This document shows positions 31,054-36,081 of a DNA stretch of 49,152 nucleotides, piece after piece (the stretch's first letter is position 1; the number at the start of each line of letters is the position of its first letter). A program made the position numbers and the translations under genes. The notes beneath the pieces are model-generated. The model was not told where the DNA came from and did no database searches. It saw nothing but the letters and a program-made list of their open reading frames with translations. Source of the DNA: Natrinema pallidum DSM 3751 (GTDB lineage: Archaea; Halobacteriota; Halobacteria; Halobacteriales; Natrialbaceae); NCBI RefSeq assembly GCF_000337615.1, contig NZ_AOII01000026.1, forward strand, positions 61,779 through 110,930. The letters run 5' to 3'.

Positions 31054-32154
31054 TTATCGGGCGGGTTCGACGTTCTGGCTCAGCCGAAACAGGTTCTCCG
31101 GATCGTACGTGGCCTTGACCTCGGCCAGCCGGTCCCCGTTCCGCCCGTAAGCGAGGGTTTCCTCGCCCTCGTTCTCGCTGATGAAGTTCACGTAGACGCC
31201 GCCGGTCGCGTACGGAGCCATCGCGTCGAAGAACGTTCGGGACCAGGCGATGCACTCGTCGTCCATCGCGGGGTCCTCCCAGCGCGTGTAGACGTTCATC
31301 GCGTACGCGGCGTCCCGGTGGGGGTAGGCCATCGCGTCCGACGGGACGCGTGCCATCTCGCCGCCGAGTTGCCCGAAGACGATCTCGGACAGTGGCGACG
31401 GGAGATCGGCTGCGTACTCGACCGGTGCGTCCTCGTTGAAGTCCCGAACGTGTCGGATGACCTCCCGCGCATCGTCGCCCGCGTAGACGATCGGTCCGGA
31501 GAGGATTTCGGGGCCGACCTCGTGGAGATCGAACTCGAACGAGGTGACCACGCCGAAGTTACCGCCCCCGCCTCGAATCCCCCAGAAGAGGTCCGAGTTT
31601 TCCGCCTCGCTTGCGTGACGCAGTTCGCCGTCCGCGGTGACGATATCGACGGAGCGCAGGTTATCCACCGTCATTCCGTACCTGCGAGTCAGCCAGCCAA
31701 ACCCGCCGCCGAGCGTGAGCCCCGCGACGCCGGTCGTCGAATTGATTCCGGTCGGCGTCGCCAGTCCGAACGCTTGCGCCTCGTGGTCGAAATCACCGAG
31801 GGTTGCGCCCGGCTCGACGCGAGCCGTCCGTTCCGCCGGATCGACCCGAACCGACCGCATCGCCGAGAGATCGAGCATCACGCCGCCATCGCAGACGGCA
31901 TTGCCGGCGATGTTGTGTCCGCCGCCGCGAACTGCGAGCAGTACGTTCTGCTCGCGGGCGAAGTCCACCGTTGCGATCACGTCCGATACACCCGTCGCTC
32001 GAACGATGAGCGCCGGCCGCCTGTCGATCATGCCGTTCCAGATTGTTCGCCTCTCGTCGTAGTTCGGATCACCGGGCCGGAACAACTCGCCGCGAAGTTC
32101 CTCGTCGAGTCCGTCCATTGCACCGTCGTCTACGGGTGTGGTCGTTACTGCCAT
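31054..32154 (-). CDS. Berberine-bridge-type FAD oxidase with internal deletion
   Basis: A 366-residue flavoprotein. The FAD-binding domain has VRGGGHNIAGNAVCDGG (the His is the covalent flavin site), GINSTTGVAGLTLGGGFGWL and WGIRGGGGNFGVVTSFEF; the C-terminal BBE motif YDPENLFRLSQNVEP is present. Homologues are typically about 460 residues. Here FNEDAPVEYAADLPSPLSEI joins directly the segment before and after a substrate-domain region of roughly 80 residues, so an in-frame deletion near 31395-31425 is likely. The ATG at 32154 is preferred since a TTATATAA box at about 32208-32215 would put the transcript start downstream of the first ATG (32205). Confidence 0.72.
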   Translation of the reverse strand: MAVTTTPVDDGAMDGLDEELRGELFRPGDPNYDERRTIWNGMIDRRPALIVRATGVSDVIATVDFAREQNVLLAVRGGGHNIAGNAVCDGGVMLDLSAMRSVRVDPAERTARVEPGATLGDFDHEAQAFGLATPTGINSTTGVAGLTLGGGFGWLTRRYGMTVDNLRSVDIVTADGELRHASEAENSDLFWGIRGGGGNFGVVTSFEFDLHEVGPEILSGPIVYAGDDAREVIRHVRDFNEDAPVEYAADLPSPLSEIVFGQLGGEMARVPSDAMAYPHRDAAYAMNVYTRWEDPAMDDECIAWSRTFFDAMAPYATGGVYVNFISENEGEETLAYGRNGDRLAEVKATYDPENLFRLSQNVEPAR

Positions 32155-32424
32155 CGGTCCTCGGTAGTCGTAGGCCTCGCTCGCGGATATGGATACCATC
32201 ATCAATGATTATATAATGTTGCATCGAGGGGTGCCCGGAACCGGGGAGATCACGGGACGGCTCGAGGGAATCCGGATCGCGCCGCACGCCTGCAAACTGG
32301 CCCACGCTCCGATCGGAGGCCGGTCGTTCGAACCGGATTCAGGACCGACGGGGCTGCGATCACAGCACAGCAGCGCGAGCGACGCCGTGAGGCACCGTTT
32401 TAGGCCATCCAAAATCGGAACGCA
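32155..32424. other. Divergent promoter region
   Basis: No gene is visible between the flavin oxidase and the iron-box-controlled lipoprotein. The left part holds the minus-strand TATA box cattatataatc (about 32206-32217); the right part leads into the TATA box and iron box at 32425-32448. The rest shows no repeat of note. Confidence 0.5.
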
Positions 32425-32432
32425 TTTATATA
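32425..32432 (+). promoter_or_regulatory. TATA box of the iron-box-controlled lipoprotein
   Basis: TTTATATA lies 20-27 bases before the ATG at 32452 and directly abuts the palindromic operator at 32433. Confidence 0.7.
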
Positions 32433-32448
32433 TTTAGGCGAGCCTAAA
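32433..32448. promoter_or_regulatory. DtxR/IdeR-type iron box
   Basis: TTTAGGCGAGCCTAAA is a perfect inverted repeat (TTTAGGC, GA, GCCTAAA). It matches the TTAGG..CCTAA core of operators bound by DtxR-family metal-dependent repressors, which haloarchaea possess (Idr/SirR proteins). It sits between the TATA box and the start codon, where a bound Fe(II)-loaded repressor would block polymerase. The identity of the regulator is inference from the motif. Confidence 0.75.
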
Positions 32449-32451
32449 ACC

Positions 32452-34947
32452 ATGCGACAGACACGACGCGCGTGGCTGAAGGGGAGCGGCGCTGCAATCG
32501 CGAGTCTCGGACTCGCCGGGTGTTCCGAGACGACCGAGGAAAAAGACCCCAAATCGGACTCGGGGGAAGACGGGACATCTCCGGAGTCCGACGAGGGATC
32601 GACGGTCGCGGAGCCGGCCAAGACGGCCGTCGCCGCCGAGTGGAACGCGATGCGAGCGCGGCTGTGGGACGCGCTCGCCGCGGGGGAGGCCGGTGAGACC
32701 GGTGCCGGCGCTGCTATCGCCAGCCGGACGTTCGATCGCTTTGAGCACGCCAGCGGCGAGTACAACGCCCACGAAATGCTCGAGGAAACCGACGAGTCAC
32801 GCTACGAGGCGTTCGAGGAGGCGCTCGTCGAACTCCGGACGGAGGGGCTGGAGCGGAACGACATCGCACGCGGCCGGGAGGAAACCGGTATCGCGGACGA
32901 GCAACTCCGCGGGGCCCAGCAGACCCTCGTTGGCGAGCCGACGGCCCAGGCGTTCGATCTGCAGGCGTTCGGGACGACGGTCGCCGATAGTGTCATGCTC
33001 GCCTCGGCCGGTGCCTTCGACGCCGCCGAAACCGTCGCGAACGACGCGTTCGAACGGTTCGAGGGGGCGGCCGTCCACGACGCGATCGGGGAAGCCGACG
33101 GCGACGTTTACGAGCGATTCGAACACGCCATGGAGAGCGTCGCCACGGCCGCGGGCGACGAGGACGTAGAGGGCGTCCGCTCGAGCGCGAGCGATGCGCT
33201 CGCGGCGGCTATCGACGGCGGCTACGCCCTGGCACCGTCCGAGTCGGCAGCGGGTGCCGGACAGATCGCCGCCTATCAGGCACGAGGCTGGGACGCTGCG
33301 GCGCTCGCGGGGCTGGGCGGGCCGTCGACGGCGTTCGCTCACGCCGCTGCCCTGACCGTGTATCGGGCGCGGGCCCACGACGCGGCCTGGCTCTTCGAGC
33401 ACGGGAAGCACGATGCAGCCGCGCGGGTCGTCGAGAACGCGTTCGAACACTTCGAGGGCGCTCGCGCACACGAGGCACTCGAGGAGGCGAGCGAGGACGC
33501 CTACCACCGATTCGAGGAGGACGGTCTGGACGCACTCGCGACGGCGATCGAGAACGACGATTCGGCGGGCGTCGACACCGCCGTCGATGCGGTCGACGAC
33601 GGGCTGGTGACCGGGATCGAGGCCCTGGGGACCGGCAGCGAGGCCGCACTGATCGAGGCTGGCTTCTTCAAAGCTCGAACCGAAGACGCGGTGGAACGGT
33701 ATCGGCTCGGCGAGAACGCGGCCGCCGCCGAACTCGTCCGCGGGCTGTTCGAGACGTTCGAGGCCAACGAAGCCGACTTCCACGAAACGCTCGAGGAGAC
33801 TGACGAATCGCTCTACGAGACCTTCGAAGAGGAGCACCTGCAAGGCCTCATCGAGGCCTGCGAGAACGGCGACGACGCGGCCGTCGACGAACACGCGACG
33901 GGGATCCGCGAGACCCTCCTCGAGTTCGAGACGACCGTCGGCTCGACCGCACAGGTCAGCGCCGTCGAAAGCGGGTACATGACCGCGCGGGTGTTCGACG
34001 CCGGCGTTCTGGACGCCCTCGGCGCGTCCGACCGAGCCGAAACCGTCGTCGGGGAGACGTTCGAGTACTTCGAAAACGGTGCGGGCGGGTTCCACGAGGC
34101 ACTCGAAGACGCCGATCACGACCGGTACGAATCGTTCGAGGGCGCGCTCGGCGACGCGCAGACCGCCGCCGGGAACGATGCGGCTGTCGGAGCCACGGCC
34201 CGGGCGTTCAACGAGCACGCGGTCGCGGCGACCTATTCCGTCGTCGCGGCCGCCGGCGGCTCGTTCGGTGCCGCCGCCGCGTCACTCATGGATGACGTGT
34301 ACGAGACGTTCGAGAGTGCGCAGGCTCACGAACTCCTCGAGGAAGCCGACCGGGAGGCCTACGAGGGATTCGAGGCGGCGCTCGAGGAGTACACCGCCGC
34401 GCTCGAGGCGAGCGACGCCGAGAGCGACGCCGCCCACGAGACGGAGATGGACGTCGACGAGGCCGCCGAAGCGTTCGCGACGGCGGCGTTGCGGGCGCAG
34501 TTCGCGGTCGCCGGCGCGGCCGACGCAGCGCCGGTCGACGGGTCGGCTGACACTGCCGACGAGACCGAATCAGCGCCGGACCTCCAGGGCGGACCGAACG
34601 TCGTCGAGGGCGTCCCCGACGACGCCGACCACGTCGTCGAGATGCAGGCGACCGCGTACGCTCCGGAGACGCTCACCGTCAAGCAGGGCGAGACCGTCGC
34701 CTGGAAACACGCGGCCGGCGAACCGCACACGGTGACGGCCTTCGAAGATCGGATCCCGAGCGACGCGGCCTACTGGACGTCGGGCGGGTTCGACAGCGAA
34801 GACGGTGCTCGCGAGGGATGGGAGAACGGCAAAGGCGCGGTCCAGTCGGGCCAATCGTACGTCCACACGTTCGAGACGACGGGCGAACACGAGTACGTCT
34901 GCATCCCCCACGAGCGCTTCATGACCGGAACGATCGTCGTCGAGTAA
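32452..34947 (+). CDS. DUF5059-like lipoprotein: six helical repeats plus C-terminal cupredoxin
   Basis: An 831-residue exported lipoprotein (MRQTRRAWLKGSGA signal, lipobox LAGC, Cys24). Six copies of a helical unit follow, each with the core FExFExxxxHExLEEAxxxxYExFE, at about 93-122, 199-224, 331-355, 433-459, 537-563 and 618-641. The C-terminal 725-831 is a blue-copper (halocyanin-like) domain with ligands His759 (GEPHTV), Cys817, His820 and Met824 (YVCIPHERFM). The pattern matches the haloarchaeal family annotated DUF5059. A cupredoxin joined to Glu/His-rich helices recalls EfeO-type ferrous iron uptake proteins, and the iron box in the promoter fits a role in iron acquisition; the substrate is not shown by the sequence. 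Confidence 0.8.
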   Translation: MRQTRRAWLKGSGAAIASLGLAGCSETTEEKDPKSDSGEDGTSPESDEGSTVAEPAKTAVAAEWNAMRARLWDALAAGEAGETGAGAAIASRTFDRFEHASGEYNAHEMLEETDESRYEAFEEALVELRTEGLERNDIARGREETGIADEQLRGAQQTLVGEPTAQAFDLQAFGTTVADSVMLASAGAFDAAETVANDAFERFEGAAVHDAIGEADGDVYERFEHAMESVATAAGDEDVEGVRSSASDALAAAIDGGYALAPSESAAGAGQIAAYQARGWDAAALAGLGGPSTAFAHAAALTVYRARAHDAAWLFEHGKHDAAARVVENAFEHFEGARAHEALEEASEDAYHRFEEDGLDALATAIENDDSAGVDTAVDAVDDGLVTGIEALGTGSEAALIEAGFFKARTEDAVERYRLGENAAAAELVRGLFETFEANEADFHETLEETDESLYETFEEEHLQGLIEACENGDDAAVDEHATGIRETLLEFETTVGSTAQVSAVESGYMTARVFDAGVLDALGASDRAETVVGETFEYFENGAGGFHEALEDADHDRYESFEGALGDAQTAAGNDAAVGATARAFNEHAVAATYSVVAAAGGSFGAAAASLMDDVYETFESAQAHELLEEADREAYEGFEAALEEYTAALEASDAESDAAHETEMDVDEAAEAFATAALRAQFAVAGAADAAPVDGSADTADETESAPDLQGGPNVVEGVPDDADHVVEMQATAYAPETLTVKQGETVAWKHAAGEPHTVTAFEDRIPSDAAYWTSGGFDSEDGAREGWENGKGAVQSGQSYVHTFETTGEHEYVCIPHERFMTGTIVVE

Positions 34948-35088: not shown

Positions 35089-36081
35089 ATGGTAACTTTC
35101 CTCTCCGGTGGCACTGGAACGCCGAAGCTATTGGACGGCGCTGCCGCCGCGTTCTCGCCGGAGGAGACCACGGTCGTCGTCAACACGGGCGACGACATCG
35201 AGATCGGCGGGCTCTTGGTCTCGCCGGACGTCGATACGCTGCTGTTTCAGGGTGGTGGAATCCTCGACCGAGAGACGTGGTGGGGTATCGAGGGCGATAC
35301 GCAGCGGACCAACTCGGCGCTTTCCGATATCGCATCGGCCGCGGGGCTGCCCGAGGGGCCGCAGTATCTCCCCGACGACAGGCAGACCGAGGGCCGGACG
35401 CTCGCGAACTGGCGTCGCTTTTCGGGCGTTGCCGAATTCATGACCATCGGTGATCGCGACCGGGCCGTCCACATCACGCGGACGAGCCTCATCGACGAGG
35501 GGAAGACGTTGAGCGAGGCGACCGAGCGACTCGCCGACGCCTTCGGACTGACGATCGATCTCCTCCCGATGAGCGACGATCCCGTGGCAAGCCTCGTCCA
35601 CACCGACGAGGGAGTCATGCACTTCCAGGAGTACTGGGTCGCCCATCGGGGCGACCCGGCCGTCGACACCGTCGAGTTCCGCGGCTCCTCGCAGGCCGAC
35701 CCCGCTCCGGGCGTCCTCGAGGCGCTCGAGGATACCGTCGTCATCGGCCCGTCGAACCCGGTCACCAGTATCGGACCGATGCTCGCGCTCCCGGGCGTCG
35801 CGGACGCGCTCGCCCAGACGACCGTCGTCGCCGTCTCACCGTTCCTCGGCGACGACGCGTTCTCCGGGCCCGCTGGCGACCTCATGGAGGCCGTCAACGC
35901 GGAGCCGAGCACCGAAGGGCTGGCGACCGCCTACCCGTTCGCGGACGCGTTCGTGATCGACGACGGCGACGACGCCGATTTCGACCGGCCGACGGTTCGG
36001 ACGGACATCGCGATCGACTCCAGCGCGGACGCCGCGCGCGTGATCCGCGCGATCGACGATGCGATCGGACACGTGAGTTGA
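35089..36081 (+). CDS. cofD: 2-phospho-L-lactate transferase (coenzyme F420 synthesis)
   Basis: A 330-residue CofD enzyme that transfers the lactyl phosphate group to the deazaflavin Fo to give F420-0. The N-terminal [19 protein letters not shown], the [20 protein letters not shown] segment (Fo and metal binding Asp residues) and the later [15 protein letters not shown] loop are characteristic. Length is slightly above the usual 310. A GATTAAG box about 28 bases before the ATG gives the promoter. The next gene starts one base after its stop, so both are co-transcribed. Confidence 0.93.

Follow-up and report, generated by a model that had tools for sequence, protein, structure and literature searches.

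A gene of Natrinema pallidum DSM 3751 encodes a predicted extracytoplasmic lipoprotein in which helical units with invariant Glu, His and Tyr residues precede a plastocyanin-like blue-copper domain. Its promoter carries the box of an archaeal DtxR-type iron regulon. Because the gene is under an iron-starvation switch, its product probably aids cellular iron uptake. Tentatively, and at slightly less than an even chance, we interpret the protein as a cupredoxin that is induced by iron starvation, binds iron outside the cytoplasm, operates in a manner somewhat similar to EfeO and feeds ferric or siderophore ABC uptake. The family to which it belongs, DUF5059, may have been assigned to the iron regulon in earlier literature; the evidence presented here for its role in iron acquisition is new and good, though circumstantial.

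The window, i.e. the whole stretch of DNA that was analysed, comprises 49,152 nt of contig NZ_AOII01000026.1 (positions 61,779-110,930, forward strand; assembly GCF_000337615.1). Open reading frame 32452-34947 on the forward strand is a genuine coding sequence of 831 aa. Judged from its sequence, the product is a Tat-type lipoprotein consisting of a signal, six helical units, an acidic linker and a plastocyanin-like domain. In the AlphaFold model (mean pLDDT 88.5), residues 55-687 are all-helical and beta structure follows after residue 714. The FExFE...H...E...YExFE units number six, starting at aa 94, 200, 331, 433, 537 and 617, and every homologue, whether long (49/49) or short (6/6), has a twin-arginine motif plus lipobox. 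The initial annotation had described a lipoprotein with a six-repeat helical part followed by a C-terminal blue-copper domain, and the ORF, the unit starts, the AlphaFold model and the copper ligands all agree with that architecture. The following features were assigned within the protein:

32452-32523, forward strand: Tat-type lipoprotein signal, aa 1-24 (RR5-6, lipobox LAGC24)
32614-32931, forward strand: helical unit 1, aa 55-160 (invariant E98, H107, E111, Y118, E122)
32935-33231, forward strand: helical unit 2, aa 162-260, degenerate (of the core set, E204 alone is invariant)
33241-33312, forward strand: extra helix, aa 264-287, bearing the A-helix Asp D281 (AlphaFold model and alignment)
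33328-33627, forward strand: helical unit 3, aa 293-392 (invariant E335, H340, E344, Y351, E355)
33640-33939, forward strand: helical unit 4, aa 397-496 (invariant E437, H444, E448, Y455, E459, plus H462)
33946-34254, forward strand: helical unit 5, aa 499-601 (invariant E541, H548, E552, Y559, E563)
34267-34512, forward strand: helical unit 6, aa 606-687 (invariant E621, H626, E630, Y637, E641)
34591-34944, forward strand: plastocyanin-like type 1 copper domain, aa 714-831 (ligands H759, C817, H820, M824)

The Pfam profile DUF5059 (PF16502) matched over its full length (positions 1-619; 711 bits against a cut-off of 25, E 1.7e-213), which makes the Natrinema protein, at the level of sequence, an ordinary member of a catalogued, functionally uncharacterised family. 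Of the 292 genomes of the class, the haloarchaea, 77 contain DUF5059, and among 393 sampled genomes of the phylum it is confined to the taxonomic order of the source. For the alignment we used 49 long proteins and treated separately six short ones, which have about 500 residues and three units. These short forms align with the profile at its two termini alone (1-236 and 541-619), and the equivalent of the helix aa 264-287 is fused straight to their last unit. From this direct junction we infer that the long form is equivalent to a three-unit protein whose last unit has taken in three further units between its A and B helices; the helix aa 264-287 is probably the A helix of that last unit, separated from the rest by units 3-5. 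By unit distances, unit 1 of the short forms is nearest to long unit 1, and their unit 3 to long units 3 and 6. Some family copies appear broken or cut: L050 (G266) has a frame change within the gene, L037 (G095) is a short N-terminal piece and L071 (G145) is a C-terminal remnant with a stop.

The gene neighbourhood is not conserved, each neighbour being common to at most 7 of 36 examined loci. Next to the Natrinema gene lie a divergent gene for a berberine-bridge-type FAD oxidase (31054-32205) and cofD (35089-36081), both retained in close relatives only.

Three elements were identified upstream of the start codon:

32433-32448, forward strand: perfect iron (DtxR-type) box TTTAGGCGAGCCTAAA, separated from the start codon by a few nt
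32399-32414, forward strand: imperfect iron (DtxR-type) box TTTAGGCCATCCAAAA with one mismatch, 34 bases upstream of the perfect box
32425-32432, forward strand: probable TATA element TTTATATA, between the boxes and about 25 nt before the ATG, a presumed promoter element

The transcript is probably leaderless. A box search allowing up to two mismatches has an expectation of 0.10 chance matches in the window, and genome-wide the core box pattern gave 42 strand matches (22 of them forward) compared with 0 for the reversed control. In the long as in the short homologues an iron box adjoins the ATG, in 55 of the 59 overall (60 rows minus the second frame of the broken copy L050), and many homologues have a second upstream box as well. 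Elsewhere in the Natrinema genome, boxes precede the genes of an FecCD permease, five Peripla_BP_2 proteins and an SBP_bac_6 ferric-type binding protein, as well as a class III aminotransferase gene whose contig carries both IucA/IucC genes. The gene of a DtxR-family iron-dependent repressor is itself preceded by a box. With a promoter box common to iron-uptake genes, the DUF5059 gene is assigned to this regulon on sequence grounds. Other box-linked genes have no evident iron role, namely those for glycosyltransferases, a CARDB protein and DUF7551. A double iron box at L103:4816-4865 lies 14 bases before a gene whose 404-aa product has a CARDB domain and a signal-like start and was not expected in the regulon, and another at L105:4847-4897 immediately precedes the gene of a DUF7551/DUF7552 protein of uncharacterised function.

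Published expression data for the Haloferax volcanii homologue HVO_1228 point in the same direction. In one strain its gene ranked among the ten most strongly induced, rising by 4.2 log2 units alongside the siderophore cluster (PMC7714728), and in another mutant it was down by 2.9 along with the iuc genes (PMC9051519). As far as the available portions of these two papers go, neither experiment was designed to alter iron and HVO_1228 was passed over without comment. In the main text of the proteome study on iron-starved H. volcanii, the name HVO_1228 does not occur. The iron regulation asserted in the initial annotation is thus borne out by the box in 55/59 homologues, its presence at siderophore and ferric-transport genes and the co-expression of HVO_1228 with siderophore genes. 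Across genomes, siderophore synthetases co-occur with DUF5059 above expectation (odds ratio 2.7, p 0.0008, kinship ignored), IucA/IucC being missing from 45 of the 77 DUF5059-bearing genomes, and no association between FeoB and DUF5059 was detected (odds ratio 1.2, p 0.66).

In the AlphaFold model each helical unit consists of five helices, A-B-c-D-E. The core set E/H/E/Y/E comprises the second Glu of FExFE, the His, the Glu at His+4, the Tyr and the Glu at Tyr+4, and it is invariant at 25/25 positions of units 1, 3, 4, 5 and 6 across the 49 aligned long homologues, in which the first Glu of FExFE varies. The invariant residues are spread over three helices: a Glu terminates helix B (98, 335, 437, 541, 621), a His/Glu pair lies in the short helix c (107/111, 340/344, 444/448, 548/552, 626/630) and a Tyr/Glu pair in helix D (118/122, 351/355, 455/459, 559/563, 637/641). 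Unit 2 is degenerate, with H209 kept in 53% of the 49 homologues and the neighbouring E214 in 39%, and it is weak also in the three-unit homologues; the conserved sites therefore number five, not six. Of the six copies of a Glu/His unit initially annotated, all six exist as units but only five retain the core set; the idea of repeated putative Glu/His metal sites is strengthened by the 25 invariant positions. An Asp of helix A (73, 281, 310, 412, 516) also occurs in five copies, is kept in 96-100% and usually has an Arg three residues before it, while the corresponding Asp of unit 2 is kept in 55% only. Among the 139 acidic residues of the helical domain, 21 are invariant, including all 15 motif Glu, and 118 vary, a contrast to be read as descriptive because the motif itself is partly defined by conservation. 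Helix wheels, used as a proxy for clustering, place the motif residues on the rim of the buried face, on average 77 degrees off the hydrophobic direction; the remaining acidic residues face away from it, with a mean of 132 degrees. Further invariant His residues outside the core set are H297 in the A helix of unit 3 (codon 33340-33342) and H462 and H481 in unit 4 (33835-33894).

The blue-copper domain announced in the initial annotation proved complete. None of its ligands H759, C817, H820 and M824 varies among the homologues (49/49 each), and the domain superposes on plastocyanin 2plt with Z 14.2 and 1.1 A over 90 residues. The Copper-bind profile PF00127 matched the C-terminus with 48.5 bits against a cut-off of 21.2, solved plastocyanins were matched at the sequence level too, and the features of a type 1 copper site are present. 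The halocyanin model TIGR03102 scored 27.5 bits, below its NCBIfam cut-off of 93.8, and the score was likewise below the NCBIfam cut-off for plastocyanin. Four of the six short relatives have another residue in place of the axial Met, Gln in L040 and L047 and His in L041 and L046, and retain the His, Cys and His ligands; these four, as well as L042, a further short form, carry a linker rich in His ahead of the cupredoxin.

If the protein does act as an iron-binding cupredoxin, it would be induced under iron shortage and held outside the cell membrane as a lipoprotein. Five four-helix units would each provide one site, made of Glu from helix B, His and Glu from helix c and Tyr and Glu from helix D, accompanied by the conserved helix A Asp, and these five sites may bind iron outside the membrane. 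The blue-copper domain, presumably loaded with copper, could then perform a one-electron step on the bound iron, most likely the oxidation of Fe(II), and Fe(III) might be handed to siderophore or ferric-iron ABC systems of the same regulon. Several observations weigh against this reading: the gene has no linked permease or transporter, as its neighbours differ among relatives and FTR1 is absent, 45 of the 77 genomes with the gene are without IucA/IucC, the H. volcanii proteome study leaves HVO_1228 unnamed in its main text, and the axial Met is exchanged in some short relatives. To our knowledge, a lone type 1 copper site is unable to reduce oxygen, so that an electron acceptor would be needed; we know of none.

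A complete set of copper ligands in a plastocyanin-like domain would also suit an electron carrier for iron-poor conditions, that is, a halocyanin on a large acidic helical stalk that replaces iron-containing redox carriers and whose repeats serve as scaffold or for docking. In haloarchaea, one-electron transfer usually falls to halocyanins (PMC8305020), the respiratory chain's iron proteins decrease under iron starvation (PMC11349517), and some relatives are annotated as halocyanin. We consider such a role somewhat unlikely: a scaffold has no need of an E/H/E/Y/E set that is exceptionless in five units of 49 proteins, and the axial-ligand swaps in some short forms suggest that an exact redox potential is not a conserved feature. 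The protein could also bind a different source of iron or a different metal, either heme, through the one His and one Tyr that every unit retains in aromatic surroundings, or copper or zinc, for extracellular scavenging or storage under iron stress; the His-rich linker added in short forms fits with this. Yet three invariant Glu per unit suit iron or another hard metal better than heme, and the box-linked genes examined included none for heme uptake; we regard this explanation as unlikely.

Finally, the protein could be a true relative of EfeO, its units being multiplied M75 half-domains and its cupredoxin shifted to the C-terminus (aa 714-831). In EfeO itself the cupredoxin is N-terminal, and the M75 domain carries the motifs GxHxxE and ExxE-D-E (PMC3143127, PMC9174327). 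In favour of kinship, unit 4 superposes weakly on bundle 1 of Algp7, EfeO and EfeM (Z 6.2-6.8, 2.5-2.8 A, 99-100 residues), and by our own mapping all three align to it in one register across the metal-site bundle. However, for helical bundles Z below 13 is uninformative, and unrelated bundles score alike. With units 4-6 (mean pLDDT 92) as query, the fold search gave no significant PDB or viral match; EfeO and Algp7 were among 52 Foldseek chains at E up to 10, with E above 1. Peptidase_M75 (PF09375) had no match to the Natrinema protein in Pfam at E up to 1. The hhalign probability against M75 was 0.2-11%, and single-unit and pooled-unit profiles compared with 22 EfeO/EfeM sequences reached at most 11%, over a short helix hairpin only and in a different register. 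GxHxxE is absent, the invariant spacing being H-x3-E, and so is ExxE, as the residue three positions before the helix-B Glu is variable. Neither M75 proteins nor an EfeU (FTR1) permease were found in the own genome or any of the 292 haloarchaeal genomes, in searches that detected the controls. Membership in EfeO/M75 lacks support, given the missing profile match, the different motif and the absence of EfeU and EfeO from the 292 haloarchaea, and we would not apply the EfeO label to the protein. We regard descent from EfeO as quite improbable, and the corresponding view of DUF5059 as a chain of M75-like half-domains that captures and oxidises ferrous iron, with five Glu3-His-Tyr sites that feed one blue copper and no EfeU, is a long shot as well.

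Returning to the iron-binding cupredoxin, a working mode similar to that of EfeO is plausible on grounds separate from kinship. Of the EfeO-like iron carrier suggested at the outset, the architecture, the iron regulation and the repeated putative sites stand, whereas an EfeU-type permease under the same box and sequence kinship to EfeO/M75 do not, the former lacking from the own genome and all 292 haloarchaea and the latter in view of negative Pfam, hhalign and motif tests. The independent origin likewise proposed there may or may not hold, given that one unit superposes, if weakly, on the EfeO/Algp7 metal bundle in a consistent register.

Iron uptake by haloarchaea beyond siderophores is poorly known. 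FeoB occurs in 30 of the 292 haloarchaeal genomes, and M75/EfeO and FTR1/EfeU in none. DUF5059 is a ready candidate, as it occurs in a quarter of haloarchaea, combines a blue copper with invariant metal-like sites and is nearly always iron-boxed. The presence of HVO_1228 in Haloferax volcanii makes direct testing possible.

Among known systems, the likeness to EfeO (EfeUOB), Algp7 and EfeM lies in an extracytoplasmic, iron-regulated combination of a cupredoxin with helical bundles that bear acidic and His sites. The Natrinema protein differs in its reversed order, in having five to six small units instead of a single two-bundle domain, in its plastocyanin-type cupredoxin, in HxxxE in place of GxHxxE with ExxE missing, and in that no EfeU or EfeO-type partner was found. 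Among the periplasmic copper-iron proteins of the P19/FtrA-FtrB type (FtrABCD), which serve bacterial iron uptake, a cupredoxin is described alongside acidic iron sites (PMC11966278, PMC9174327); FtrABCD lacks the repeats, and haloarchaea lack an FTR1-type permease (FtrC). Halocyanin and plastocyanin share the type 1 copper domain with identical ligands and fold, to which the Natrinema protein adds a helical domain of about 640 residues under an iron box. Closest are HVO_1228 (hcpE / DUF5059) and the rest of the family, which have in common with it the full profile, a cupredoxin at the C-terminus, a lipoprotein signal and an iron box by the start codon, and from which this genus departs by a copper loop one residue shorter (CIPHERFM versus CIPHEAAGM).
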